In this document: positions 12,903 through 62,718 of the stretch, piece by piece
Numbering within the stretch: the stretch's first letter is position 1
Layout of the letters: every line of letters begins with the position of its first letter
Source: Collimonas sp. OK607
Lineage (GTDB): Bacteria > Pseudomonadota > Gammaproteobacteria > Burkholderiales > Burkholderiaceae_D
DNA length: 64,000 nucleotides
Assembly (NCBI RefSeq): GCF_900111995.1
Contig: NZ_FOKF01000023.1
Location: 1 to 64,000, forward strand
Reading direction: 5' to 3'
Made by a program: the position numbers and the translations under genes
Notes under the pieces: generated by a model
Database searches by the model: none
What the model saw: only the letters and a program-made list of their open reading frames with translations
Told to the model about the DNA's origin: nothing

Positions 12903-14138
12903 TCAGGCACGCGCCTGCGACCAGCGCCGATAACGCCGCGTCAGGCGCCAGGTGCGCGTCTGGTCGATGATCAAGGTCAGCAGTGCTGAATGATTGCGGG
13001 TTGCTACACGGCTGGCGCCAAGCAAGCGCAAGCGGCGTTTGACCAGGGCCATGCGCGCCACTGCTGCCATGACCTGATCTTTCCACTCGACTTGTTGACT
13101 ACGGGCAGTCTGGTCGCCGCCGGCCAGCCATTGTGCTGGCAAGTCAGGCACTATCGCCAGCGCCGTAGCCATGCCTGCCACCGCCACCCCGCTGGCCAGC
13201 ACCTGCTCGGCCACTGCTTTGCGGCTGATGCCTCCGGTGGTCATTACTGGCATATGTGCAACGGCGGCCAGCTCCTTGGCAAACTCCAGGAAATACGCTT
13301 CGCGCGCCAGGGTACGGCCATCTGCGGTGCGCCCTTGCATCGCGGGACTTTCGTAGCTGCCGCCGGACAGCTCGACCAGATCCACTTGCAATTCGTTCAG
13401 CCACAGGATGACTTGCCTAGCGTCGGCCTCACTAAAACCGCCGCGCTGAAAATCGGCGGAGTTGAGTTTCACCGCAACGCAAAATCCTGCCGAGACCGTG
13501 TCCCGCACAGCGCGTACCACTTCCAACAGCAAGCGCGCCCGGTTTGGCAAACTGCCGCCCCAGTCGTCCTGGCGTTGATTGCTCAAAGGCGACAGGAATT
13601 GTGAAATCAGGTAACCGTGTGCGGCGTGGATTTCTACTCCGGTAAATCCTGCCCGCTCGGCAGCAGCGGCGCTGGCGGCGAAGCGCGCGATGATTTCCTG
13701 GATTTCAGCATCATTCATGGCTTTGGGCTGTACGAAGAGCTTGCTATGTTTACCCATGTCCAACGCCAGCGCTGACGGCGCCCAAGCGGTGCCGCCCATG
13801 GCGGCCATCACCTGGCGGCCAGGATGATTGAGCTGCATCCACACCTGTGCACCCTTGTGCTTTGCCGCCTCGGCCCATTGCGTAAAGGGCGCCAATGGCG
13901 TCTCGGCTTCCAGCACGATGCCGCCCGGGCCGGTCAGCGCCCGTCCGTCGATCATGACATTGCCGGTAATGATCAAACCCGCGCCACCGTCGGCCCAGGC
14001 GCGGTAAAGTCGACGAATGGCGGGGCCTGGCAACTGGCCGCTATCGGCCATGTTTTCCTCCATCGCGGCTTTGGCGAGGCGGTTGGGCAAGACGCTGCCG
14101 TTCGGCAGTTGCAAAGATGAAAACATGGTTGAAGTCAT
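12903..14138 (-). CDS. NADH:flavin oxidoreductase / Old Yellow Enzyme family
   Basis: A 411-residue FMN-dependent TIM-barrel oxidoreductase. Motifs include QLNHPGRQ (substrate/FMN region), EIHAAHGYL with the paired His residues that bind the substrate carbonyl or nitro group, and MTTGGISRK for FMN phosphate binding. Such enzymes reduce enones, quinones or nitro compounds with NAD(P)H. The gene is divergent from a MerR-type regulator and has the long-spacer promoter used by MerR proteins (14172-14202), suggesting induction by an electrophile or oxidant. The inducer is unknown. Confidence 0.92.
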   Translation of the reverse strand: MTSTMFSSLQLPNGSVLPNRLAKAAMEENMADSGQLPGPAIRRLYRAWADGGAGLIITGNVMIDGRALTGPGGIVLEAETPLAPFTQWAEAAKHKGAQVWMQLNHPGRQVMAAMGGTAWAPSALALDMGKHSKLFVQPKAMNDAEIQEIIARFAASAAAAERAGFTGVEIHAAHGYLISQFLSPLSNQRQDDWGGSLPNRARLLLEVVRAVRDTVSAGFCVAVKLNSADFQRGGFSEADARQVILWLNELQVDLVELSGGSYESPAMQGRTADGRTLAREAYFLEFAKELAAVAHMPVMTTGGISRKAVAEQVLASGVAVAGMATALAIVPDLPAQWLAGGDQTARSQQVEWKDQVMAAVARMALVKRRLRLLGASRVATRNHSALLTLIIDQTRTWRLTRRYRRWSQARA

Positions 14139-14171
14139 GGCGGGTCCGCTTGCAAAGGGTGGAAATACTGT

Positions 14172-14202
14172 ATCCTAAGCTTGAAGTCAACTTGAAGGTC
14201 AA
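14172..14202 (-). promoter_or_regulatory. MerR-type promoter/operator of the flavin oxidoreductase gene
   Basis: Read on the minus strand: -35 TTGACC, a 19-base spacer and -10 TAGGAT. The spacer holds the repeat pair CTTCAAG/GACTTCAAG. An overlong 19-base spacer with the operator inside it is the hallmark of MerR-activated promoters, where the regulator untwists DNA to align the hexamers. The adjacent MerR gene starts five bases beyond the site. Confidence 0.65.
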
Positions 14203-14207
14203 GCACT

Positions 14208-14618
14208 ATGAAGATTGGTGAACTGGCGGACAAAACCGGCATGGCTTCCTCAGCCATCCGCTATTACGAGCAAAGCGGCTTGCTGCCTAAAGCTGAACGC
14301 GGCGCCAACGGCTATCGCGATTACTCCGAGGCGGCCGTGGAACGCCTGCGCCGGATCCAGATGGCGCAAAGCCTGGGGTTTTCGCTGGATGCTATCCGCA
14401 GCGTATTTGCCAGCCACGAGGAATTATCGAAAGACGATCTGCTGCGCAAGCTGGATGGGCGGCTGCAAGAGATAGAACAGCTCATGGATACGCTGCGCGA
14501 ACAGCAACAACATTTGCGCGCCCTGCGCACCACGCTGCGCGAAACCTGGGCTGAAGGAGAATGTCTGAACACCGCGTCCTTGATCAATGGCAAGCTTGCG
14601 GTGAAAGAAAAGCACTAA
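14208..14618 (+). CDS. MerR-family transcriptional regulator
   Basis: A 136-residue MerR protein. The N-terminal winged helix begins MKIGELADKTGMASSAIRYY and is followed by the second helix pair (GYRDYSEAAVERLRRI). A long coiled-coil dimerisation helix spans about residues 80-115. The C-terminus has only one Cys, in ECLNTASL, so it does not show the paired-Cys metal site of ZntR/CueR or the four-Cys cluster of SoxR. It very likely controls the divergent Old Yellow Enzyme gene through the shared intergenic operator. Confidence 0.92.
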   Translation: MKIGELADKTGMASSAIRYYEQSGLLPKAERGANGYRDYSEAAVERLRRIQMAQSLGFSLDAIRSVFASHEELSKDDLLRKLDGRLQEIEQLMDTLREQQQHLRALRTTLRETWAEGECLNTASLINGKLAVKEKH

Positions 14619-14643
14619 GAGCTTGAGCGATTAGCGCGACGTA

Positions 14644-14709
14644 GTGATCTGGGGTCGGAGTCAACTTTCGCAGGCTTTATCGCGAAACTTGACTCCGACC
14701 CCAGATCAC
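14644..14709. repeat. REP-like palindrome, copy 2
   Basis: A long palindrome with arms GTGATCTGGGGTCGGAGTCA and its complement, closing on a CAGGCTTTATCG-type centre. Its inner part equals the reverse complement of the 101-150 copy. It lies after the MerR stop and may also act as a transcript end. Confidence 0.8.
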
Positions 14710-14711
14710 GG

Positions 14712-14779
14712 CCACGGAGTAAGGCAGTTCACTTATCCCCGGTTTGTTTGTTTCTGTTTTTACCACCTCTACTCCGTGG
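14712..14779. repeat. Linker hairpin between two REP-like palindromes
   Basis: CCACGGAGTA (14712-14721) and TACTCCGTGG (14770-14779) are perfect inverted repeats around a T-rich 48-base loop. The loop lies between REP copies 2 and 3. Together the three form a composite, BIME-like unit. No coding sequence is seen in 14619-14888. Confidence 0.6.
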
Positions 14780-14782
14780 TCC

Positions 14783-14850
14783 ACTAAGCGGGGTCAGAGT
14801 GAAGTTTCGGCGGTGAAACATGCCGAAAGTTCACTCTGACCCCGCTTAGT
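14783..14850. repeat. REP-like palindrome, copy 3 (variant subfamily)
   Basis: Arms ACTAAGCGGGGTCAGAGTGA and complement, with a near-perfect stem of about 29 bases and a GTGAAACAT-type loop. It shares GGGGTCAGAGT with copy 1 but differs inside the arms, so it is a variant of the same family. Confidence 0.75.
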
Positions 14851-14888
14851 TCTGGCTTCCCGTTGCATTCGGATTCCAGTGGCTGCTG

Positions 14889-15263
14889 CTATTCGTCCTC
14901 ATATTCCGAGTACTTGCGCGCATCGCCACGTACTTTATCTGCAGGATATTTAAGCCGGTTCAGGACCATTTTTTCTGATACGGCGGCGCTGAGATCGACA
15001 TCGAGTTTGTCGGCCAGGCGAATCAGGTAGACCAGCACATCAGCCATTTCATGCCGGACCTGCTGCAACTTGGCTGGATTGAGCTCATCGCCGTTGCCGG
15101 TTGGCAGCCATTGAAAATGTTCAAGAAGCTCGGCCGCTTCGACGCACAGTGCTGAGGACAGGTTTTTAGGGGTATGAAATTGATCCCAATCGCGTTCGGC
15201 GACGAATTGGCGAATTTCTTCGCGTAAACGGGAGAATTCACCTTTTTCAGATTGATCGGCCAT
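14889..15263 (-). CDS. MazG-like nucleotide pyrophosphohydrolase
   Basis: A 124-residue all-alpha NTP pyrophosphohydrolase. The metal-binding helices are visible as EAAELLEHFQW and HEMADVLVYLIRLAD, which supply the ExxE and ExxD acidic pairs. This size and the RDWDQFHTPKNL N-terminus match the RS21-C6/dCTPase-like branch, which cleaves (d)NTPs to monophosphate and pyrophosphate for pool clean-up. GGAG precedes the start at good spacing. It is 28 bases after the DUF971 gene and could be the last gene of that transcript, though its function is probably unrelated. Confidence 0.9.
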   Translation of the reverse strand: MADQSEKGEFSRLREEIRQFVAERDWDQFHTPKNLSSALCVEAAELLEHFQWLPTGNGDELNPAKLQQVRHEMADVLVYLIRLADKLDVDLSAAVSEKMVLNRLKYPADKVRGDARKYSEYEDE

Positions 15264-15291: not shown

Positions 15292-15606
15292 TCATATAGG
15301 CAGTCGGTGCTCTATATCCATATCACCGATCTGTTCCAGATAGCTCCACGGATAAATCCCACGGTTGTGGCCATCTTCAAAAAATAACCTTATCCCGTAA
15401 CTGCCGACAGCTTCAACCGCCTGTACCTTGAATGCCGGCTCAGCGTCCACCGGCGGCAAATCCTGTTGACGATCGCTACTGCAATCCCCGCACCTGCATG
15501 CCATGCGCAGTTTCCTACCCTTGATCTGCAGGCAGCTGCCATCAAGCCAGATAATCTCAAGCAGATTGCTGTTGCGCAGATAACTTAGCGTGTCGACCTG
15601 TTTCAT
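15292..15606 (-). CDS. DUF971 / gamma-butyrobetaine-hydroxylase-like N-terminal domain protein
   Basis: A 104-residue single-domain protein. The N-terminal strand pattern (LLEIIWLDGSCLQI) and the Cys cluster CRCGDC (about residues 37-42) match DUF971, the zinc-binding domain found at the N-terminus of gamma-butyrobetaine hydroxylases and beside Mrp/ApbC-type iron-sulfur proteins. The C-terminal half contains GIYPWSYL. Its start shares one base with the stop of the HEAT-repeat gene (TAATG), so it is translationally coupled to the ABC/AprAB-like operon. Role unknown; an iron-sulfur or zinc-related accessory function is a guess from context. Confidence 0.85.
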   Translation of the reverse strand: MKQVDTLSYLRNSNLLEIIWLDGSCLQIKGRKLRMACRCGDCSSDRQQDLPPVDAEPAFKVQAVEAVGSYGIRLFFEDGHNRGIYPWSYLEQIGDMDIEHRLPI

Positions 15607-16607
15607 TAAATTGACGTAGTGTTAATCTGCTGTATTGCCAGGCGTACGGATTTTCTGACTTCCGGATCCGGATCGGCTTGATGTTTTTCCAATTCGTCCA
15701 GCGCCAAGCCGGAGCCGATTTCCCCCAGCGCCAGCGCTGCTTCCTTGCGCAAGTTGCTGATCTGGTGCGACAGCAGCGTTAGCAACGCAGCTACCGCTGA
15801 TGGATTACGTAATCGTCCAAGGCTACGTGCGGCACGCAGGCGAACTTGCCAGTAGGAGTCCTGCAGGCTGTCGATCAGCGGGTCGATCGCCGCCGCCAGA
15901 CGCAGCTTGCCTATCGTGGTTGCGGCTTCTTCGCGAACTTGCCATGCCTCGTCGTGCAATCCCTTCAATAACGCAGGCAAACCATTTTCATCGCTGGCGT
16001 AACCCAGTGCTCCCACTGCCGCTCGACGCACCTCGGCATCGCTGTCGCTGTATAACAAAGTCTGCAACGACGACAATGCCTGCGGATGTTTCAAATAACC
16101 GAGCACGGCTACCGCTTCACGCCGGACCATCGCGTCCTGATCCGACAGTGCGGCAATTGCAGGTTGATAGCTAGCCATCACTCGTAAAGGTTTGAGCGCA
16201 CGCAGCGCGGATGCCCGCACCTGCGGCAACGGGTGCGAAACAGCAGGCAGAAGATATTTCGCGGACGAAGTCAGTTTCAAGTCGCTCAGGCTATCCGATG
16301 CGGTATTGTGGACTTGGGCATCTTCGTCGCCAAGCAGGTTCACCAAGGCGGCCACGCCCTGCTCGCATTCAAAGGCCTGCAGCGCAGCCGCAGCTTCACG
16401 ACGCACCGGCGGCGATGCATCGTTCAGGGCGCTGACAAACAAGTAGACATGCTCGTCGCCGGCAAGATCGGTCAGATCGAGGATGGCGATGCGCCGGATT
16501 TCACTGTCCGGCGATTGCAGCCTTGCACTGATGACTTGCAGCTCAGGTGTTGCGTCGGCGGGATGGCTCAAAAGTAGTTCCTTCATGAATATGTGGCCGT
16601 GGTTCAT
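15606..16607 (-). CDS. HEAT-repeat (PBS-lyase-like) protein
   Basis: A 333-residue protein made almost wholly of about nine HEAT-like repeats with a period near 31 residues. Successive copies include VRREAVAVLGYL, VRRAAVGALGYA, VREEAATTIGKL, VRLRAARSLGRL and LRKEAALALGEI. Such solenoids mediate protein-protein contact or, in PBS lyases, bilin attachment. There is no signal peptide. The start at 16607 overlaps the ATPase stop (ATGA), and its stop overlaps the DUF971 start, so it is a coupled operon member. An internal Met at 16586 is possible. It may be a scaffold or assembly factor for the AprAB-like enzyme; this is inference. Confidence 0.85.
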   Translation of the reverse strand: MNHGHIFMKELLLSHPADATPELQVISARLQSPDSEIRRIAILDLTDLAGDEHVYLFVSALNDASPPVRREAAAALQAFECEQGVAALVNLLGDEDAQVHNTASDSLSDLKLTSSAKYLLPAVSHPLPQVRASALRALKPLRVMASYQPAIAALSDQDAMVRREAVAVLGYLKHPQALSSLQTLLYSDSDAEVRRAAVGALGYASDENGLPALLKGLHDEAWQVREEAATTIGKLRLAAAIDPLIDSLQDSYWQVRLRAARSLGRLRNPSAVAALLTLLSHQISNLRKEAALALGEIGSGLALDELEKHQADPDPEVRKSVRLAIQQINTTSI

Positions 16608-17473
16608 ATCGCGAATCGTAATTGCCTCGCGTGGATCACCCCGAGCGGACTGAGCCGTTCCAGGGACAGCATGTCGCGCTGCGGATGCAACAGTGCCAGG
16701 CAACGCGCCTTGAGCGCGACGAAATCGGCAGAGGTCACCAGCTGGTGGCTGCGCGGCCGCGCGAAATCGATATCAAGTTCTTCGATAATGCGACCGGGAT
16801 GCGCACTCATCACGAATAGCCGGTCTGCCAGAAACAATGCCTCATCGATATCGTGGGTAATGAAAATGATCGAGGTGCGGATCGACGACCATACCTGCAA
16901 CAACAGCTGCTGCATCATCAGCCGCGTTTGTGCGTCGAGTGCGCCAAACGGTTCATCCATCAGCAATACCTTGGGACGATTGATCAGCACCCGCGCAATT
17001 TCCACCTGCTGTTGCATGCCGCCCGACAGCTGCGCCGGATACGAACGCTCGAAACCCGCCAGGCCAACCAGTTCCAGCAAATCCTGCGCACGCCGGTTGC
17101 GCTCGGCACGCTTGACGCCTTGCATCTTGAGTCCGAAGGCGACGTTGTCGAGCACGTTCTTCCACGGGAACAACGTATGATGCTGGAATACCAGGCCGCG
17201 GTCCGGATGCGGTCCGTTGATCGTATCGCCATCCAGCCGGATGCTGCCGGCGGCGCTGCTCAGATGGCCTGCGATGGCACCCAGCAAAGTCGACTTTCCG
17301 CAACCGGACGGGCCCAGCAGGCACACCAGCTGGCCCGGCTCAACCGTGAACGAGATATCGCGGACGGCATCGAACGCACGTTCGCCGCGCCCCAGCCGGA
17401 TATGCAGCTGGTCGATGGCTAGCTTGCCGCTTGTTACAGAATTCATTACCGGATTCACTGCAGGATTCGTCAT
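16604..17473 (-). CDS. ABC transporter ATPase, nitrate/sulfonate/taurine type
   Basis: A 289-residue ATPase with Walker [10 protein letters not shown] at residues 54-62, signature LSGGMQQQV, and Walker B VLLMDEPFGALD. The GGMQQQV and PFGALD forms are typical of SsuB/TauB/NrtD proteins. It has no regulatory C-terminal domain. The start at 17473 overlaps the permease stop (ATGA); a longer upstream frame is a shadow of the permease. It powers uptake with the permease and binding protein upstream. Confidence 0.93.
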   Translation of the reverse strand: MTNPAVNPVMNSVTSGKLAIDQLHIRLGRGERAFDAVRDISFTVEPGQLVCLLGPSGCGKSTLLGAIAGHLSSAAGSIRLDGDTINGPHPDRGLVFQHHTLFPWKNVLDNVAFGLKMQGVKRAERNRRAQDLLELVGLAGFERSYPAQLSGGMQQQVEIARVLINRPKVLLMDEPFGALDAQTRLMMQQLLLQVWSSIRTSIIFITHDIDEALFLADRLFVMSAHPGRIIEELDIDFARPRSHQLVTSADFVALKARCLALLHPQRDMLSLERLSPLGVIHARQLRFAI

Positions 17474-18294
17474 TTTCTCTTCTTCTGCAGATACCAGGGC
17501 ATCAAGGCCGTACCCAGCCGGCGGATCAGGGCGCTGCTGCCCATTCCCATCAAGCCGATGAATAACATGCCAACCACGATCTCCGGATAATTTTGTACGG
17601 TATAAGAGGCCCAGGTGAAATAGCCGATACCGTATTGGCCGGAAATCATTTCTGCAGTCACCAGGCAAAACCAGGCGGTCCCCATGCCGATCGACAAACC
17701 GGTGACGATGCTTGGCGCGGCCGCCGGAAAAATCACTTCTGAAAATATGGCGCGCTTGCCGCAACCCAAACTCTTGGCGGAAGCTATCAGCCGCGCATCG
17801 ATCCCGTCCACGCCGTGGATCGTATTGAGCAGGATCGGAAACAACGCCCCGAGGAAAGTGATAAAAACCATCGACATTTCAGACGACGGAAACATCAGGA
17901 TCGCCAGCGGAATCCACGCCACGGCGGGTATCGGCCGCAACACTTCCAGCGGCGGTAACAAGCTGTCTTCCAGCAGCAGCGAACGCCCGATCAACAGCCC
18001 GAGGGCTATACCGGCTACCGCAGCAATGCCGAATCCTGCAAACACGCGCAGCAGGCTGCTGCCCACATGCTGTAGCAGTTTCGGTGAATGCAGAAACTCC
18101 CACGCCGCCGCAGCTACTTCGAGCGGCGTCGGTACATTGCTGAAGGTGATCAGGCCCAGATCAAGGTGATGCCCGGCTGTCCATTGCCAGGCCAGCACGC
18201 AAACGATGAGCGACACCAGTTTCAACAACGGCCGCACGATAGCCAGACGTCCGATTGGCAATCGCCATGCGGAGCGCAAAATGAAGACAGTCAT
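17470..18294 (-). CDS. ABC transporter permease, SsuC/TauC type
   Basis: A 274-residue inner-membrane permease with about six helices. The EAA-like cytoplasmic loop reads IASAKSLGCGKRAIFSEVIF, with the late Gly typical of the SsuC/TauC/NrtB group. It forms a homodimeric channel in this family. The start at 18294 is chosen because the residues after it begin the conserved amphipathic N-terminus. The stop overlaps the ATPase start. Substrate is not deducible from the permease alone. Confidence 0.92.
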   Translation of the reverse strand: MTVFILRSAWRLPIGRLAIVRPLLKLVSLIVCVLAWQWTAGHHLDLGLITFSNVPTPLEVAAAAWEFLHSPKLLQHVGSSLLRVFAGFGIAAVAGIALGLLIGRSLLLEDSLLPPLEVLRPIPAVAWIPLAILMFPSSEMSMVFITFLGALFPILLNTIHGVDGIDARLIASAKSLGCGKRAIFSEVIFPAAAPSIVTGLSIGMGTAWFCLVTAEMISGQYGIGYFTWASYTVQNYPEIVVGMLFIGLMGMGSSALIRRLGTALMPWYLQKKRK

Positions 18295-18304
18295 AGGATC
18301 GTCT

Positions 18305-19702
18305 TCAGACTGCGGCCCGGGCAGCGGCATAGTCGACGATCTTGCCGCCGTGCTGCTTGACCCACGCTTCGGCCGCCTCTTTCAACAGGAATGCATTGAT
18401 CTCTTTTCCATTGACGACGTACCAGCCATCGCTGGCAAACAGCTTCAATCCATTGCTGCGATCCGTGCCGTAGATCACGCGAATTTTCTTGCCGCTCTGC
18501 TCCAGCCCGGAGAGATCGAGGAATGCCGACTCCGGCGACGCATAGTTGCGCACGCGTGCCTCTCCCTGGACCCAGATCTGGGCAGCGCGCTGTGTGTCCT
18601 CGATGGCCTTGCCGGTGCGCGCATCTTTTGCCGTCAATGGCTGTTTCGCATAGTTTTTCAGTTGCGTTTCGTAATTCAGGCTGGCTTGCTGAAAGGCGGT
18701 GCGCACGTAGCGATCATCGATAAAAGCATTAACGTCGAGGTCACTGTCGACGCGCTTAAGCAAACGCAAGGTTTCTATCGCCGTCTTCAGCGCCTGGCGA
18801 TATTCCGGCTTCCAGCTCAGATCCCGGGTCTGCAAACCCTGCGGCCCGTGAAACAGGTAAATCACTTCGGCATCGATACCGGTATTCTTGGCCACCAGCT
18901 CGCTGTATTTTTCGGGCTCGGCCGCAAACAAGCGGTCGGCTTCGATCGCGGCACGTTCGAATGCGACGACAATTTCCGGATATTTACGCGCATATTCGGC
19001 ATCCGCCAAAGTGCCGTGGAAAGTGGCGGCATTGGCTTGTGAGCCGTCGTAAATCTTACGTGCGTACCCGCGGTACGGGAACAGCTCGGCAAACGGCACA
19101 AAGTCGGCGTGGGCGTCGATCTTGTTGGCTTGCAATGCCGGCCCCGCAATTTCAGGCGCCTGGGTGACGATGGTGATGTCCTTTTCCGGATCCCAGCCTT
19201 GCGCCTTCGCCGCGCGCAACAGCAAACCGTGCGCGGTGGAGGCGAACGGCACGGAAATGGTCTTACCTTTCAAATCCGCCAGCGATTGCACCGACGATGT
19301 CTTGGGGACTACGATGCCGTTGCCGCTGCCGATGGTGCTGCCGGATAAGACGTTGATGAAAACACTCTTCCTGCCGGCTTTTTGAAACGTGGCGCCGTTC
19401 AATGCACCGGGAAAATCGGCCATCGATCCGATATCAAGTTTTCCGGCTACCATTTCACTGGTCAGCGGCGCACCGGAAGTAAAATTTTTCCATTCGATCT
19501 GATAATTTACATCCTTGTACTTGCCATCATGCGGCAGGTATTTTTCCAGCAATTTCAGTTCGCGTATCAATACGCCGCCGGTGGCGCAATTGATGGTTGT
19601 ATCCTGGGTGCCGATTGCCACGCGAATGGTTTCCGCCCGGGCCGCTCCGGCTGCCAACACGAACAAGACCGACAGCGCGCTCATGGATCGATTCAAATGC
19701 AT
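18305..19702 (-). CDS. ABC transporter substrate-binding protein (SsuA/TauA-like) with C-terminal extension
   Basis: A 465-residue periplasmic binding protein. The signal peptide ends near AARAE (about residue 23). The SsuA/TauA/NrtA-type fold follows, with LKGKTISVPFAST as the recognisable lobe motif. Usual family length is about 310-350, so roughly 100 residues are extra. That tail (from about residue 385) contains KLFASDGWYVVNGKE and EAWVKQHGGKIVDY, reminiscent of NosL-type small domains. GGGAGAAACGAAT is a strong ribosome site. It lies 61 bases after the ferredoxin gene. A sulfonate or other organosulfur ligand is plausible but unproven. Confidence 0.88.
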   Translation of the reverse strand: MHLNRSMSALSVLFVLAAGAARAETIRVAIGTQDTTINCATGGVLIRELKLLEKYLPHDGKYKDVNYQIEWKNFTSGAPLTSEMVAGKLDIGSMADFPGALNGATFQKAGRKSVFINVLSGSTIGSGNGIVVPKTSSVQSLADLKGKTISVPFASTAHGLLLRAAKAQGWDPEKDITIVTQAPEIAGPALQANKIDAHADFVPFAELFPYRGYARKIYDGSQANAATFHGTLADAEYARKYPEIVVAFERAAIEADRLFAAEPEKYSELVAKNTGIDAEVIYLFHGPQGLQTRDLSWKPEYRQALKTAIETLRLLKRVDSDLDVNAFIDDRYVRTAFQQASLNYETQLKNYAKQPLTAKDARTGKAIEDTQRAAQIWVQGEARVRNYASPESAFLDLSGLEQSGKKIRVIYGTDRSNGLKLFASDGWYVVNGKEINAFLLKEAAEAWVKQHGGKIVDYAAARAAV

Positions 19703-19763
19703 ATTCGTTTCTCCCTATATGGCTTGGTGTAAAAATTCTAGACGGCAATGACTTGCGCTGGCA

Positions 19764-19997
19764 TCAGCGCAACAGGTATGGAATATCGACATGCACGGCA
19801 CCAGTCGGACAATCCTGTTCACATGGCATGCAGTACCAGCATTCGTCGAATTTCATGTAGGCCTTGCCCTTGATCATGTCGATGGCCAGCACATCGAGCG
19901 GGCAAACGTCGACGCAGACTGTGCAGCCTTTATGGGCGATGCATTTATCTGCATCGACCGTGACCGGTACGCTGGATGGGCTGAAAGCTAGCGGCAT
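19764..19997 (-). CDS. 2[4Fe-4S] ferredoxin, AprB-like
   Basis: A 77-residue ferredoxin with eight cluster cysteines. Cluster I is Cys19, 25, 28, 32 (C-x5-C-x2-C-x3-C-P) and cluster II is Cys53, 56, 59, 63 in ECWYCMPCEQDCPTGA. The CW-x-C-x2-C-x3-CP-x-GA form closely resembles the beta subunit of dissimilatory adenylylsulfate reductase (AprB), but the C-terminal tail that wraps around AprA is missing. AGGAGAC precedes the ATG. It starts nine bases after the AprA-like gene, the same alpha/beta pairing in reverse order to classical aprBA. It probably passes electrons to or from the flavoprotein. Confidence 0.92.
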   Translation of the reverse strand: MPLAFSPSSVPVTVDADKCIAHKGCTVCVDVCPLDVLAIDMIKGKAYMKFDECWYCMPCEQDCPTGAVHVDIPYLLR

Positions 19998-20006
19998 GGT
20001 TGTCTC

Positions 20007-21755
20007 CTAAATGACTATTGACGGTTCTGGCTTTGATTCGGCTTCGACCTTGACCCGCAGGTGCCGGTAGGCGTCTTTTTCCTGCTCGTCCAGTGCGACG
20101 ATGTATGGCTCGATCGAACGTTTGAAGCAAGTCATGCGACCGTTTTCCAGCTTCACCTGGACATGGACAAACCAATCCTTGTCGTTGCGCTCCGGGTAAT
20201 CGACCCGATCGTGATACAAACCCCACCGGCTTTCGGTGCGATACAGCGAGGCGCGCGCCGCCATCTCGGCGCAATCGCGGATCGCATGCACTTCCATCGC
20301 CCGCATCAGCTCATGCGGATTGCTGGCAGAAAGGCGTTCCAGATCCGCGCTGATGGCTTCGAAGCGGCTCAGCCCGATCTCCATCTTGCGCGTCACCTTC
20401 GGCGGTTGCAGGTAATCGTTGACCATGCGCCGCAGCTTGTATTCGACCTGCGCCGGCGGCAAGCCGTCAGTACGCGACAGCGGCGCCCAGACGCGATTTC
20501 TCTCTGTTTCGACCTGTTGCTCGTCGAGCTCGGCCAGCTCGTGCCCGGCGCAGCGCCGCGCCGCGCTTTCTCCGGCCAGCTTGCCGTAGACGAAGGCGCC
20601 TAGCATGTAGTTGTGCGGAACACATGCCAGGTCGCCGGCGGCATACAGGCCGGCTACCGTAGTTTCCGCATGTTCATTGACCCACACCCCGGATGCCGAA
20701 TGGCCGCTGCACAGGCCGATTTCTGAAATATGCATTTCCACCATCTGTTCCCGATAGTCGGTTCCACGCCCGGCATGGAAGCGGCCGCGGCTCGGGCGTT
20801 CGTTGGTATGCAAGATGGTTTCTATGGTGCTGATGGTTTCTTCCGCCAGGTGATTCAACTTGAGGAATACCGGCCCGTTACCGCCTTGCAGTTCGCGATA
20901 GAACTCCATCATCATCTGGCCGCTCCAATAATCGCATTCGATGAAACGTTCGCCCTTGCTGTTGGTGGTATAGCCACCGAACGGCCCGGTGACATACGCG
21001 CACGCAGGACCGTTGTAATCCTTGATCAGGGGATTGATCTGGAAGCACTCAATACCGCTGAGCTCGGCGCCGGCGTGATAAGCCATGCTGTAGCCGTCGC
21101 CGGCATTGGTCGGATTTTCGTAGGTGCCGAACAAGTAGCCGGAGGAAGGCAAACCCAGGCGCCCTGCCGCACCGGTGCTGAGGACCACCGTCTTGGCGCG
21201 CACCACGTGAAAATCTGCGGTGCGGCAATCGAATGCCATCGCTCCGGCGATGCTGCCGTCCTGCGCCAGCAATAACCGGGTGACTACCAGCCGATTGGAA
21301 ATCTCGACCCGGGTGCGCTTGAGGCGGCGATACAGCACTTTCTTGATGTCGTGGCCTTCCGGCATCGGCAGTACATAACTGCCCATGTGATGCACCTTGC
21401 GCATCGCATAGTCACCGGTTTCATCCTTTTCAAATTTGATGCCCCAGCGATCCAGTTCTTCTATCATCGAAAAACTGTTTTCGGCATACGCCATTACCGT
21501 CTTTTGATTGACGATGCCGTCGTTGGCGATCGTGATTTCCTTCACATATTGGGTTGGCGTAGCGTGGCCCGGAACCACTGCATTGTTCAAGCCATCCATC
21601 CCCATCGAAATCGCGCCGCTGCGTTTGACATTGGCCTTTTCAAGCAGCAGCACGCGCAGCGCGGGATTGGCTTCCTTGGCTTTGACTGCGGCCATCGGCC
21701 CGGCGGTGCCGCCGCCAATAACCAGCACGTCTACGGTTTGTATATGTGTTTGCAT
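20007..21755 (-). CDS. AprA-like FAD-dependent oxidoreductase (fumarate reductase/APS reductase alpha superfamily)
   Basis: A 582-residue flavoprotein. The FAD dinucleotide-binding motif is VIGGGTAGPMAA near residue 12. KANVKRSGAISMGMDGLNN follows, strongly recalling the RSGAVAMGLSAIN motif of adenylylsulfate reductase AprA. The second FAD motif is GLYAAGDLACVPH. A C-terminal helical domain has RWGLYHDRVDYPERNDKDW, a typical end region of the superfamily. No signal peptide, so cytoplasmic. It is paired with the AprB-like ferredoxin and preceded by a GntR regulator. It is shorter than true AprA (about 620-660), so the substrate may differ. No sat, qmo or dsr genes are in the window. Confidence 0.88.
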   Translation of the reverse strand: MQTHIQTVDVLVIGGGTAGPMAAVKAKEANPALRVLLLEKANVKRSGAISMGMDGLNNAVVPGHATPTQYVKEITIANDGIVNQKTVMAYAENSFSMIEELDRWGIKFEKDETGDYAMRKVHHMGSYVLPMPEGHDIKKVLYRRLKRTRVEISNRLVVTRLLLAQDGSIAGAMAFDCRTADFHVVRAKTVVLSTGAAGRLGLPSSGYLFGTYENPTNAGDGYSMAYHAGAELSGIECFQINPLIKDYNGPACAYVTGPFGGYTTNSKGERFIECDYWSGQMMMEFYRELQGGNGPVFLKLNHLAEETISTIETILHTNERPSRGRFHAGRGTDYREQMVEMHISEIGLCSGHSASGVWVNEHAETTVAGLYAAGDLACVPHNYMLGAFVYGKLAGESAARRCAGHELAELDEQQVETERNRVWAPLSRTDGLPPAQVEYKLRRMVNDYLQPPKVTRKMEIGLSRFEAISADLERLSASNPHELMRAMEVHAIRDCAEMAARASLYRTESRWGLYHDRVDYPERNDKDWFVHVQVKLENGRMTCFKRSIEPYIVALDEQEKDAYRHLRVKVEAESKPEPSIVI

Positions 21756-21766
21756 GGTGTTCCCGG

Positions 21767-22579
21767 TTATTCGGAGGCGGTGCTGCGCGTCTTGTTGTCA
21801 AGCTTGCGCGCAGGCGATGGTGAAGCTGTGGCATCAGCTGCTTTGCGCTCGATCTGTAAGCGGTATTGGAAGGCGTCGCCGCGGAAGTATAGGTATTCGA
21901 AGTCCAGCGGCGTGCGGTCGGCGCGATGCGTCAAGCGCTGTAGACGTAGCAACGCCGTACCTTCCGGCACGCGCAGCGCATGCGCCAGGGTGACATCGGC
22001 CAGCAAGGCGTCGATTTGCAAATCGGCATGGCCCAGTGCGATGCCGTAGTCATTCTCCAGGATCAGAAAGATATCCCGTGTCGCCAAGTCTTCCTTGCGC
22101 AAACGTTCACCGATTTCCTGCGGCAAATAAGTAATCTCAAGGGAAACCGGCTCGCGATTCAGAAAACGGATGCGCTTGATTTCGGTGATCGGTACGCCTG
22201 CGCTCAACCCGAATTGCTGCGCCACCTTGGGCGGCGCATTGATGATTTTGTGGCTGATTACCTGATTGTAGATTTCATAACCCATGCGCGACATCGCTTC
22301 TGCAAAACCTTCCAGCTGCGTCAATTGCTGGAAAGCTTTCGGCTTCGATACGAAGCTGCCCTTACCGGGAATCTTGAAGATCACGCCTTCCTTCTGGAGA
22401 TCGCTCAATGCCTGGCGGATAGTGATGCGACTAACGCCGAAAATCGCGCTCATCTCACTTTCCGCAGGCAGTTGGGCATGCGGCGCATAACTGCCGTCCA
22501 GTATGCGTTCCCGCAAATTCTCCTTGACCTGGGTATACAAGGGAACCGGCGACAGCTCCAGCGTACGAAAATTTTTCAT
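21767..22579 (-). CDS. GntR-family regulator, HutC/UTRA subfamily
   Basis: A 270-residue regulator. The N-terminal winged helix includes LPAESEMSAIFGVSRITIRQ and is followed by the glycine turn GKGSFV. The C-terminal UTRA effector domain (about residues 90-240) has the PVSLEITYLP motif of the HutC group. It lies 11 bases before the AprA-like gene and is transcribed with it, so it most likely autoregulates the whole transporter/redox operon in response to its substrate. The effector is unknown. Confidence 0.92.
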   Translation of the reverse strand: MKNFRTLELSPVPLYTQVKENLRERILDGSYAPHAQLPAESEMSAIFGVSRITIRQALSDLQKEGVIFKIPGKGSFVSKPKAFQQLTQLEGFAEAMSRMGYEIYNQVISHKIINAPPKVAQQFGLSAGVPITEIKRIRFLNREPVSLEITYLPQEIGERLRKEDLATRDIFLILENDYGIALGHADLQIDALLADVTLAHALRVPEGTALLRLQRLTHRADRTPLDFEYLYFRGDAFQYRLQIERKAADATASPSPARKLDNKTRSTASE

Positions 22580-22898
22580 GATGCATTCCCGCCTGTTATG
22601 ACAGGTTATGTCGATAGCACTGGATGCTACGGAGAATGCCGTATGGCGTGAACGAATCTATTTACAGATGCTTATGCGAAATTCCAGCTACAGCTACTTA
22701 TGCGCGGAGCGATAGCAGAATTTGTCACGGGCTGAAAAGATGCCAATCTTGCAAGCACTTTCATCGCCACGACCTACGTGATATAAGTTAATTGCTGCCT
22801 TGCTTGCCGGAATTTGTTTTCGACTGTAAATTTATGAACTGATGTGTCGCCGCTAACTAACGGAGACGACCGAACCATCATCACGGTTGAGGATGCAT
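22580..22898. other. Divergent intergenic region, gntR / diguanylate cyclase
   Basis: 319 bases between two divergent genes. It contains the small inverted repeat at 22592-22605 next to gntR. The remainder is A/T-rich with no convincing gene; both promoters should lie here but no strong hexamer pair stands out. Confidence 0.5.
22592..22605. promoter_or_regulatory. Candidate GntR operator
   Basis: CCTGTTATGACAGG is a perfect five-base inverted repeat around TATG, 13 bases upstream of the gntR start. A second overlapping pair, GACA-TGTC, extends it. GntR/HutC proteins bind short palindromes like this. Assignment rests only on symmetry and position. Confidence 0.35.
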
Positions 22899-61521: not shown

Positions 61522-62718
61522 ATGCAAAAACAATTTGATGTCGCCGTCATCGGCGCCGGCGCTGCGGGCATGATGTGTGCTGCAGTAGCCGGGCAACGCG
61601 GGAAAAAAGTCGTCCTTATCGATCACGCCACCAAACTGGCGGAAAAAATCCGTATCTCGGGCGGCGGCCGTTGCAATTTCACTAACATCAACGCAGGACC
61701 GCAGAATTTCCTGTCGCAGAACCCGCATTTTTGCAAAAGTGCCCTGTCGCGCTACACGCCGCAAGATTTCCTTAGCTTGATGAAACGCCATCGGATTGGC
61801 TATCACGAGAAGCACAAAGGGCAATTGTTTTGTGACGACTCGTCGGAACAAGTGATCGCCATGCTGAAAGCCGAGTGCGATCTGGGCAACGTCAGCTGGC
61901 GCATGCCTTGCAGCGTTGCCAATGTGGGTAAGAGCGGCGATCTGTTCAGGATAGACAGCAGCGCCGGAGAAATACTTGCGAGCAATGTCGTCATCGCAAC
62001 CGGCGGCTTGTCCATACCAAAAATTGGCGCCACCGACTTCGCCTATCGCATCGCGCGTCAATTTGATTTGGGCGTGATAGAACCTCAACCCGGCCTGGTA
62101 CCCCTGACCTTTGATGCAGCAGCCTGGCAGCCATTTTTGCCGCTGGCCGGCATTGCCTTGCCGGTTGAAGTCGAAACCGGCGACAAAAAAAAACGCGGCG
62201 AATTCAAGGAAGACCTCCTGTTCACGCATCGCGGACTATCAGGGCCGGCGATCCTGCAGATTTCCAGCTTTTGGAAGGCTGGTACCCCCCTGTCATTGAA
62301 TCTCCTGCCTGAAATCGACGTCGTCAGCACGTTAATTGAAGGTAAAACCTCGGTTAAAAAAAATCTTGGCAACGTCTTCGCACAATGGCTGCCGACACGG
62401 CTGGCGCACGGCATCATCGAGGCCAACAAGCTGGATCCGGCAGCGCGCCTGGCAGACATGCCAGACCGCCAGCTGCGAAATTTAGGGGATGCAATCAATC
62501 GCTGGACCATCTTGCCCAGCGGCTCTGAAGGATATCGCAAAGCTGAAGTCACCTTGGGCGGGATCGATACCAGGGAACTATCACAGCAGAGCATGATGTC
62601 CAAGCAGGTAAATGGCTTGTATTTTATTGGCGAGTCGGTGGACGTCACCGGGTGGCTGGGCGGCTACAACTTTCAGTGGGCCTGGGCCTCGGGTACTGCA
62701 GCAGGGCTGGCAATTTGA
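61522..62718 (+). CDS. YhiN/HI0933-family FAD-dependent oxidoreductase
   Basis: A 398-residue flavoprotein. VIGAGAAGMMCAAVAGQRG starts the FAD domain, and RISGGGRCNFTN is the HI0933 hallmark. The C-terminus has GLYFIGESVDVTGWLGGYN with the second FAD motif. The reaction is not established. It lies 32 bases after ybdK and could be cotranscribed. Confidence 0.92.
   Translation: MQKQFDVAVIGAGAAGMMCAAVAGQRGKKVVLIDHATKLAEKIRISGGGRCNFTNINAGPQNFLSQNPHFCKSALSRYTPQDFLSLMKRHRIGYHEKHKGQLFCDDSSEQVIAMLKAECDLGNVSWRMPCSVANVGKSGDLFRIDSSAGEILASNVVIATGGLSIPKIGATDFAYRIARQFDLGVIEPQPGLVPLTFDAAAWQPFLPLAGIALPVEVETGDKKKRGEFKEDLLFTHRGLSGPAILQISSFWKAGTPLSLNLLPEIDVVSTLIEGKTSVKKNLGNVFAQWLPTRLAHGIIEANKLDPAARLADMPDRQLRNLGDAINRWTILPSGSEGYRKAEVTLGGIDTRELSQQSMMSKQVNGLYFIGESVDVTGWLGGYNFQWAWASGTAAGLAI

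Follow-up and report, generated by a model that had tools for sequence, protein, structure and literature searches.

Background

The adenosine 5'-phosphosulfate (APS) reductase AprAB and the 3'-phosphoadenosine 5'-phosphosulfate (PAPS) reductase of Methanothermococcus thermolithotrophicus (Protein Data Bank (PDB) entry 8a8o) are both built from a flavin adenine dinucleotide (FAD) subunit of the fumarate reductase superfamily and a small partner with two [4Fe-4S] clusters. The best-known assimilatory routes for sulfonates, those of SsuD and TauD, use oxygen. A further system, asfRABC of Pseudomonas putida S-313, joins a flavoprotein and a ferredoxin to a sulfonate-type ATP-binding cassette (ABC) transporter, is linked to ssu genes and has a LysR regulator; the available part of its description mentions no HEAT-repeat protein (PMC4267179). 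Here we describe an operon in a 64,000-nucleotide stretch of Collimonas sp. OK607 (contig NZ_FOKF01000023.1, positions 1 to 64,000; hereafter the window), whose flavoprotein FlvA, ferredoxin FdB and ABC importer may, to judge from comparative sequence analysis, constitute a widespread bacterial system for the uptake and reduction of sulfonate-type compounds, with a two-part redox enzyme akin to, and distinct from, APS reductase.

FlvA-FdB shares the overall build of AprAB and 8a8o. The operon resembles asfRABC in combining a flavoprotein, a ferredoxin and a sulfonate-type transporter, and differs from it in having a GntR instead of a LysR regulator and a gene for a HEAT protein. Its transporter belongs to the same superfamily as SsuABC and TauABC, and genes of the SsuD/SsuE system adjoin FlvA in several lineages.

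Findings

Organization of the operon

The operon occupies positions 22579 to 15292 of the minus strand, with its genes in the order listed.

22591..22606: predicted operator, a 16-bp palindrome GCCTGTTATGACAGGT with one mismatch to the consensus ACYTGTYATRACARGT, 11 bp before the GntR start
21767..22579, minus strand: GntR/UTRA (HutC-type) regulator, first gene of the operon, 270 aa (Pfam UTRA 1.1e-35, GntR 2.1e-20)
20007..21755, minus strand: FlvA, FAD flavoprotein of NF006131 / PRK08275, related to AprA, 582 aa (1088.8 bits)
19764..19997, minus strand: FdB, AprB-type two-[4Fe-4S] ferredoxin with a CWYC motif, 77 aa
18305..19702, minus strand: SBP, periplasmic binding protein of the SsuA/TauA superfamily, 465 aa
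17470..18294 (the start may be 18330), minus strand: TMD, ABC permease (BPD_transp_1 4.2e-21)
16604..17473, minus strand: NBD, ABC ATPase, 289 aa (ABC_tran 1.5e-34)
15606..16607, minus strand: HEAT-repeat protein, 333 aa (HEAT_2 4.1e-75)
15292..15606, minus strand: DUF971 / GBBH-like_N protein with a CxCxxC motif (PF06155 1.9e-20)

The genes for TMD and NBD, and those for NBD and HEAT, overlap in ATGA, while HEAT and DUF971 meet in a TAATG junction; the gaps are 11 bp between GntR and FlvA, 9 bp between FlvA and FdB and 61 bp between FdB and SBP. An earlier note on this DNA had listed these genes from the regulator to HEAT, and we recover every one of them on the strand and in the order it gave; its range of 15606-22579 covers those genes correctly but cuts off the last, DUF971 at 15292-15606. 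It had also remarked on the lack of sat and qmo, and the operon indeed contains neither, a difference from AprAB systems to which the small size of FdB (only 77 aa) adds another.

Affinities of FlvA and FdB

FlvA is a clear member of NF006131 (1088.8 bits, cut-off 587), and scores 903.9 bits against PRK13800, the model of a FlvA-HEAT fusion with a cut-off of 1196. Outside these two, the best named NCBIfam model is NF005331, the APS reductase alpha subunit, at 317.3 bits (under its cut-off of 557), and the AprA model TIGR02061 gives 180.5 bits, far under its cut-off of 641.75. By sequence, the PAPS reductase 8a8o is the best PDB relative (4.3e-67), ahead of the APS reductase 2fja (4.4e-42) and Escherichia coli SdhA 1nek (7.7e-27). 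Foldseek also ranks 8a8o at the top when queried with the predicted FlvA structure, to which we give little weight at its low-confidence mean pLDDT of 62.5. FlvA has the FAD_binding_2 and Succ_DH_flav_C fold, and no separate NAD(P)-binding domain is seen by Pfam; a Pyr_redox_2 match (28.6 bits, cut-off 26.1) covers only residues 9-51, which belong to the FAD fold.

In a midpoint-rooted maximum-likelihood tree of 34 rows (one empty NadB row having been left out), the 21 FlvA rows form a clade (support 96/92) that is sister to AprA plus 8a8o, the three together being supported at 99/98, with AsfA-like and SdhA-like proteins outside. As this tree drew a long-branch warning at the join of AprA and FlvA, we rebuilt it with 17 rows; FlvA (96/98) and AprA plus 8a8o (100/100) were each recovered as a clade, and the branching among FlvA, AprA and the AsfA-like proteins was not resolved. 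In both trees FlvA stands apart from SdhA and from any characterised non-sulfur enzyme family, the placement that the earlier note had wished to see checked. We accordingly treat FlvA as a family of its own, by score nearest to the APS/PAPS reductases. A separate observation is that one Thiobacillus genome (G233; L116, L120) carries two distinct AprA genes, both full-length, which the tree places on separate branches of AprA.

In AprA, Asn74, Arg265, Arg317 and His398 have catalytic or sulfate-binding roles, and Glu141 belongs to the APS pocket. Asn74 and His398 align with Asn57 and His352 of FlvA, both invariant in 21 diverse members. Arg265 (numbered by counting along the alignment) is matched by Leu243, also invariant in the 21, and the arginine of the AprA LRNH stretch, which we take to be Arg317, has no counterpart. 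The region of Glu141 and Gln145, the latter an APS-pocket residue according to the available part of PMC10322725, gives way in FlvA to a stretch peculiar to this family, which includes a YVLPMP insertion. In the same alignment 8a8o retains both arginines, in line with the report, in the part of that paper available, that this PAPS reductase keeps the residues put forward as catalytic in APS reductases (PMC10322725). Since FlvA lacks both the AprA arginines and the APS-pocket residues, APS/sulfite chemistry is not transferable to it by homology. What FlvA conserves instead across the 21 members is a large core beyond FAD binding, including VH at 121-122, QINPLxKDYNGP, DYWSGQMM, ERPxRG and PHNYM. 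A role as a substitute for APS reductase is ruled out by the loss of the key residues together with the presence of AprA over cut-off in 4 of 20 FlvA genomes searched. The label of AprA-like given by the earlier note holds as a statement of nearest kinship by score. We are confident, from the tests run on these sequences, that FlvA lies outside both APS reductase and fumarate reductase, and equally that the name carried by NF006131 (fumarate reductase/succinate dehydrogenase) is unsupported by either the FlvA residues or the gene context.

FdB matches the small subunits 1jnr_B, 3gyx_B and 8a8o_C. All 99 matches above 70 bits (our own gene counted more than once) have a tryptophan after the first cysteine of the second cluster, as CWYC in 98 and CWFC in one, and the electron-transfer tryptophan of AprB sits beside the same cysteine. 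In the PAPS reductase Trp42 has been named for an electron-transfer role (PMC10322725, available in part).

The asf flavoprotein was considered for identity with FlvA. AsfA and AsfB have been named in C. metallidurans CH34, and our candidate for this pair (Rmet_4334/5, at 928 kb) has a flavoprotein about 27% identical to FlvA, in a separate clade in both trees, so that we do not equate FlvA with AsfA. The CH34 pair was assigned by elimination over the stretches read and not by locus tag, so that its identity as AsfA is inferred; a motif scan of CH34 from 790 to 888 kb found no other pair of FAD protein and ferredoxin. The window's genome has no close relative of the CH34 candidate, the best match being FlvA itself at 27%.

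Distribution and conservation of the gene set

FlvA scored over its cut-off in 3 of 229 genomes of a class sample, 21 of 398 of a phylum sample and 18 of 195 of a family sample (8 of 44 genera), with our own genome included in each count; it occurs in 4 of the 12 same-genus genomes listed in the family sample. A scan of a larger collection confirmed at least 590 relatives among 593 matched stretches, the best 80 of which are referred to below as close loci. On plasmids, the best place was 60-80% identical in 54 of 183 matching records; the other 129 fell under 60%, and those listed were mainly SdhA, FrdA, NadB and other FAD proteins. The gene set was seen in beta- and gammaproteobacteria, rhizobia, Methylobacterium, Acidithiobacillus, the cyanobacterium Pseudanabaena and the actinomycete Nonomuraea, and this patchy spread is the pattern of an accessory trait.

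We searched the surroundings of FlvA by tblastn (E 1e-8, at least 45% of the probe covered) in 20 of the 21 phylum-sample loci (our own genome left out), in 16 of the 18 family-sample loci (our own and the already counted G408 left out), and in 40 control stretches of 19.8 kb taken at round-number positions of 20 FlvA genomes. Given in this order (phylum/family/control), the counts for the core genes were 20/16/0 for FdB, 18/16/0 for SBP, 17/16/0 for HEAT, 19/15/0 for DUF971, 18/16/1 for TMD and 19/14/9 for NBD. Those for further genes, discussed below, were 9/4/0 for ferredoxin-NADP reductase (FNR), 4/4/0 for the ferredoxin FdxA, 6/3/1 for YeiH, 0/0/1 for TauE, 2/0/0 for TauD and 0/0/0 for SsuD (both at 45% identity or more), and 0/1/1 for one probe of the LLM type of monooxygenase. 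Since FlvA loci themselves supplied the extra probes, and related loci do not count as independent, these figures overstate the surprise somewhat. Among the 80 close loci we found FdB in 78, HEAT in 74, GntR in 69, SBP in 64, DUF971 in 54, FdxA in 12, a GltD-like oxidoreductase in 8, TauD in 8, SsuD in 6 and an AsfA-like gene in 1, and none with TauE, YeiH or FNR; among 16 plasmid loci we found a Crp/Fnr regulator in 8, TauE in 3, FdxA and AsfB in 2 each, and SsuD, TauD, YeiH, FNR and an AsfA-like gene in 1 each. The core neighbours are hence constant across genomes and far above controls, where the earlier note had reckoned with random variation as the other outcome. Downstream of the window's operon lie a gene of the old-yellow-enzyme type and, after a short gap, a MazG-like gene (12903-15263 for the two); the latter is kept after the operon only in the same-genus L214 and L215 among the 16 family-sample loci.

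The literature searched describes no role for this gene set, as the earlier note had also believed; coverage was partial and the absence is not proof, and the verdict of novelty could shift with a paper outside it. The available part of PMC8557817 has nothing on the gene set. A NifA-regulated sulfonate operon of Paraburkholderia phymatum (PMC8305402, available in part) was considered as a lead and dropped, as it is not in the 49 kb of pBPHY02 examined.

The transporter and accessory proteins

SBP scores 129 bits against SsuA_fam (cut-off 163.5) and 91.7 bits against the taurine model (cut-off 304.25); it aligns to TauA 6ssy and SsuA 2x26, shares a VPFxSTxH stretch with the taurine-binding TauA, and at 465 aa is longer than the solved SsuA/TauA relatives (~300 aa). 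NBD reaches 271.4 bits against the TauB model (cut-off 357), and the best match of TMD is the nitrate permease NtrB (152.5 bits, cut-off 209). Unlike the ssu system, the window's operon contains no SsuD, nor any other oxygenase.

The HEAT protein matches the C-terminal part of the fusion model PRK13800, and a 940-aa Nonomuraea protein has the FlvA-HEAT layout of that model, with FdB, SBP, TMD, NBD and a GntR regulator alongside. DUF971 is a domain of Fe-S carriers of the Mrp/NBP35 type; CxCxxC is present in 57 of 64 members, and in Pseudanabaena an Mrp/NBP35 carrier follows HEAT. The DUF971 protein is a possible adaptor for Fe-S maturation. In the Pseudanabaena locus (L107, 5676-7676) a 666-aa LysR-type regulator, divergent from FlvA, also matches the operon's SBP (31% over 282 residues); it is apparently a regulator fused to a sensor resembling a binding protein.

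The regulator and its predicted operator

Of 77 GntR-type loci, 59 have the palindrome ACYTGTYATRACARGT with no more than 2 mismatches inside a 350-bp span that surrounds the annotated start of GntR (53 have at most 1 mismatch and 28 are exact), and 18 have no site there. The rest of the sequence of these loci, 1,424,604 bp, holds 23 matches. When 3 mismatches were allowed, the 40 control stretches yielded 7 matches in 792,040 bp; in the window, the only match apart from the operon site (22591-22606) was one with 3 mismatches at 61838. With at most 1 mismatch, the operon site is the only one in its own genome; across whole genomes, this threshold recovered the palindrome at the FlvA operon in 20 of 21, with 5 more sites elsewhere, where a reversed control pattern gave 7 sites in total. 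In G714 and G748, where no GntR gene was matched beside FlvA, the palindrome stands directly before FlvA. The predicted operator thus seems dedicated to the FlvA operon, and no oxygenase elsewhere in the window's genome is obviously co-regulated by it, as far as site prediction goes.

Extra palindrome sites in G719 and G748 looked unrelated. A pair in G564 was set aside as belonging to a different GntR locus: there (L258, 4424-10805) two tandem similar palindromes separate a further GntR/UTRA gene from one for a GMC oxidoreductase, after which comes a TauD-family gene; a sulfatase gene is near. A Crp/Fnr regulator accompanies FlvA operons on plasmids of rhizobia and Methylobacterium (L088, L090, L103-L106, L109, L110). 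The oxygen-sensing regulator FNR is expected to have an N-terminal cysteine cluster, and the Crp/Fnr proteins of L088, L106 and L110 are without one.

Neighbouring genes and their possible roles in electron supply and sulfur metabolism

In four loci of the window's own family (L202, L203, L207, L209) the genes run GntR-FlvA-FdB-HEAT-FdxA-SBP-TMD-NBD-DUF971-FNR on one strand, with a YeiH-family gene added in L203, L207 and L209. FdxA and FNR also follow the transporter on the Methylobacterium plasmid pMRAD01 and in the phylum-sample genomes G334 and G381, and the loci of Thiobacillus, Halothiobacillus and At. caldus have FdxA with a GltD-like oxidoreductase (~1150-1200 aa) in place of FNR. Because two different modules of reductase and ferredoxin adjoin the same enzyme, FlvA-FdB probably takes up electrons, although the majority of loci, including that of the window, lack both modules nearby. 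Sulfur oxidisers account for most cases in which the GltD-like oxidoreductase, at 1066-1199 aa, lies downstream of FlvA and FdxA (L045 15760-19350, L039 15979-19578, L057 16006-19206, L089 10574-14035).

Several neighbours point to sulfur. In L048 the order ssuE-ssuA-ssuD-ssuC-ssuB-FlvA-FdB-HEAT-amidohydrolase is found on one strand, with SsuE (235.4 bits, cut-off 164.05) and SsuD (605.5, cut-off 518.2) both over their cut-offs. Genes of the ssu type, ssuD among them, are also near FlvA in L038, L050, L052, L054 and L056, and SsuD is found in L108. The three Methylococcales loci have ssu genes upstream. AsfAB-like genes lie near FlvA in L036 and L103; L088 has AsfB, as does the G525 sequence that precedes FlvA (L199). 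Aquabacterium, Pseudanabaena and Rhizobium have genes annotated as TauE/SafE sulfite exporters no more than about 8 kb from FlvA, and in Salmonella sulfite resistance is driven mainly by YeiH (PMC12880088, available in part). The link to sulfur gains support from these ssu, asf-like, YeiH-family and TauE-family genes, which are near FlvA in a minority of loci.

Proposed function and alternatives

On this evidence we tentatively propose that FlvA-FdB is a flavo-iron-sulfur reductase, fed by NADPH and ferredoxin, which acts on an imported sulfonate-type anion and releases sulfite; this is the reading we prefer, though held with less than even confidence. Its boldest form, in which FlvA-FdB would be a new class of oxygen-independent desulfonase that reductively cleaves a C-S (or heteroatom-S) bond of the imported sulfonate with electrons from ferredoxin, in effect a counterpart for organosulfonates of the APS reductase reaction, is more doubtful. 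In outline this keeps the suggestion of the earlier note, an imported sulfur compound handled by a two-subunit redox enzyme, in view of the transporter, the FlvA-FdB pair and the sulfur-linked neighbours in a minority of loci, and gives up the APS chemistry that it had mentioned.

The ABC transporter would import a small sulfonate-type anion, as its family suggests, and FlvA-FdB, built like APS reductase, would be the terminal catalyst. Going by the operons of relatives, electrons may pass from NADPH through ferredoxin-NADP reductase and FdxA (or housekeeping equivalents) to the two clusters of FdB and on to FAD. Reduced FAD would then split the S-linked substrate, with sulfite freed for assimilation and any excess presumably exported by YeiH- or TauE-type proteins where these are present. 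HEAT may be a scaffold bound to FlvA, since a FlvA-HEAT fusion exists, and DUF971 probably aids the loading of Fe-S clusters. GntR would control the operon through the conserved palindrome at 22591-22606 and may sense the substrate or a product.

Several observations weigh against this proposal. The substrate is its weakest point, as a sulfonate-type anion is inferred from families and neighbours; SBP, NBD and TMD all fall under the cut-offs of named subfamilies, so that another ligand is possible. With the two arginines of AprA gone, a mechanism of N5 attack on sulfur cannot be inherited by homology, as judged from the alignment. The sister relation of FlvA and AprA, apparently strong with 34 rows (99/98), is not stable to sampling and was lost with 17, by which our confidence in a sulfite-releasing reductase was lowered slightly. 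FNR, FdxA and YeiH are absent near FlvA in most loci, the window's own included, and in L203 both FNR (148.4 bits, cut-off 390) and YeiH (126.5 bits on a partial reading, cut-off 232.6) are under cut-off. The loci with YeiH come from few lineages: five belong to a single phylum-sample genus and three to two genera within the window's family, the others being those of G258 and Pseudanabaena. TauE was found in 0 of 80 close, 0 of 20 phylum and 0 of 16 family loci against 1 of 40 controls, and the adjacency of SsuD, seen in 6 of 80 close and 1 of 16 plasmid loci, drops to 0 of 20 and 0 of 16 in the even samples. A match to SsuD is present in 36 of 51 FlvA genomes, the window's included. Finally, Thiobacillus, Halothiobacillus and Acidithiobacillus, for which inorganic sulfur should be plentiful, carry the gene set; in such autotrophic sulfur oxidisers it may serve detoxification or act on a substrate outside the compounds considered here.

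The alternative that survives best, which we nevertheless regard as unlikely, is that FlvA-FdB merely supplies electrons, with C-S cleavage left to a separate oxygenase such as SsuD or TauD. A review has proposed AsfAB of P. putida S-313 as such a donor; asf is described there as a reductase/ferredoxin system that is required, along with ssu, when aromatic sulfonates are used (PMC4267179). The seven loci with ssuD near FlvA and the frequent co-occurrence with SsuD (matches at 1e-60 or better) agree with this; the single SsuD of the window's genome is on another contig. On the other side, 15 of the 51 genomes have no SsuD match; of these, 8 have a TauD-family match (1e-6) and 9 a luciferase-family match (1e-10), and two, G258 (100% complete) and G231 (a metagenome-assembled genome), have no match to any of the three oxygenase families, which were the ones searched. 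By these two genomes, FlvA-FdB need not serve an oxygenase of the SsuD, TauD or luciferase family. Moreover, FNR and FdxA, where they share the operon, would already feed an oxygenase; none is encoded in the window's operon, and its predicted operator is found nowhere else in the genome at up to 1 mismatch. Taken together, the lack of a separate NAD(P) domain, the FNR and ferredoxin genes in some of the same operons, the genomes without the three oxygenase families and the large invariant core argue that FlvA-FdB is probably itself the catalyst.

Were it the catalyst, it might still act elsewhere than on sulfur: as a dehydrogenase or reductase of the fumarate reductase type, it could attack a C-C or C-N bond in the carbon moiety of a sulfonate, or of another acid, that has been imported. 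The shared FAD_binding_2 and Succ_DH_flav_C fold and a Q-x-N-P motif at the place of Q-x-H-P in SdhA favour such a role. The substrate histidine and catalytic arginine of SdhA, however, correspond in alignments to Asn241 and Gly279 of FlvA, which scores 171.5 bits against the SdhA/FrdA model (cut-off 567.3) and is apart from SdhA in both trees; we consider this role improbable too.

A similarly low probability attaches to a substrate that is no organosulfur compound at all, with a transporter of the SsuA/NrtA type bringing in another small anion (a nitrogen oxyanion, thiocyanate, carbonate or a vitamin precursor) for reduction by FlvA-FdB. The resemblance of the permease to NtrB, the annotation of the L091 binding protein as nitrate-type and the presence of the system in autotrophic sulfur oxidisers are in keeping with it, while the YeiH-family, TauE-family, ssu and asf-like neighbours of a minority of loci and the VPFxSTxH stretch common to SBP and TauA speak against it.

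Least probable is an oxidative FlvA-FdB that would, for example, oxidise sulfite or a thiol-derived product, with ferredoxin and NADP receiving the electrons: AprAB operates in either direction in nature, some loci have sulfite-handling neighbours and sulfur oxidisers carry the system, but FlvA lacks the AprA arginines and APS-pocket residues and is no stand-in for AprA in the 4 of 20 genomes that have AprA over cut-off as well.

Conclusions

The gene set presented here is conserved, occurs in 21 of 398 phylum-sample genomes (our own included), and has a flavoprotein that has been filed under fumarate reductase. Organic compounds, for the most part sulfate esters and sulfonates, hold about 95% of the sulfur in soil (PMC4267179, available in part). 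As a compact operon with a predicted operator, present in tractable hosts, it makes the question of its function directly testable. If FlvA-FdB does release sulfite from sulfonates without an oxygenase, it would add a route to the sulfur cycle, offer a way to explain the use of sulfonates where no such monooxygenase is found, and point to the recruitment of the APS reductase fold for new chemistry.

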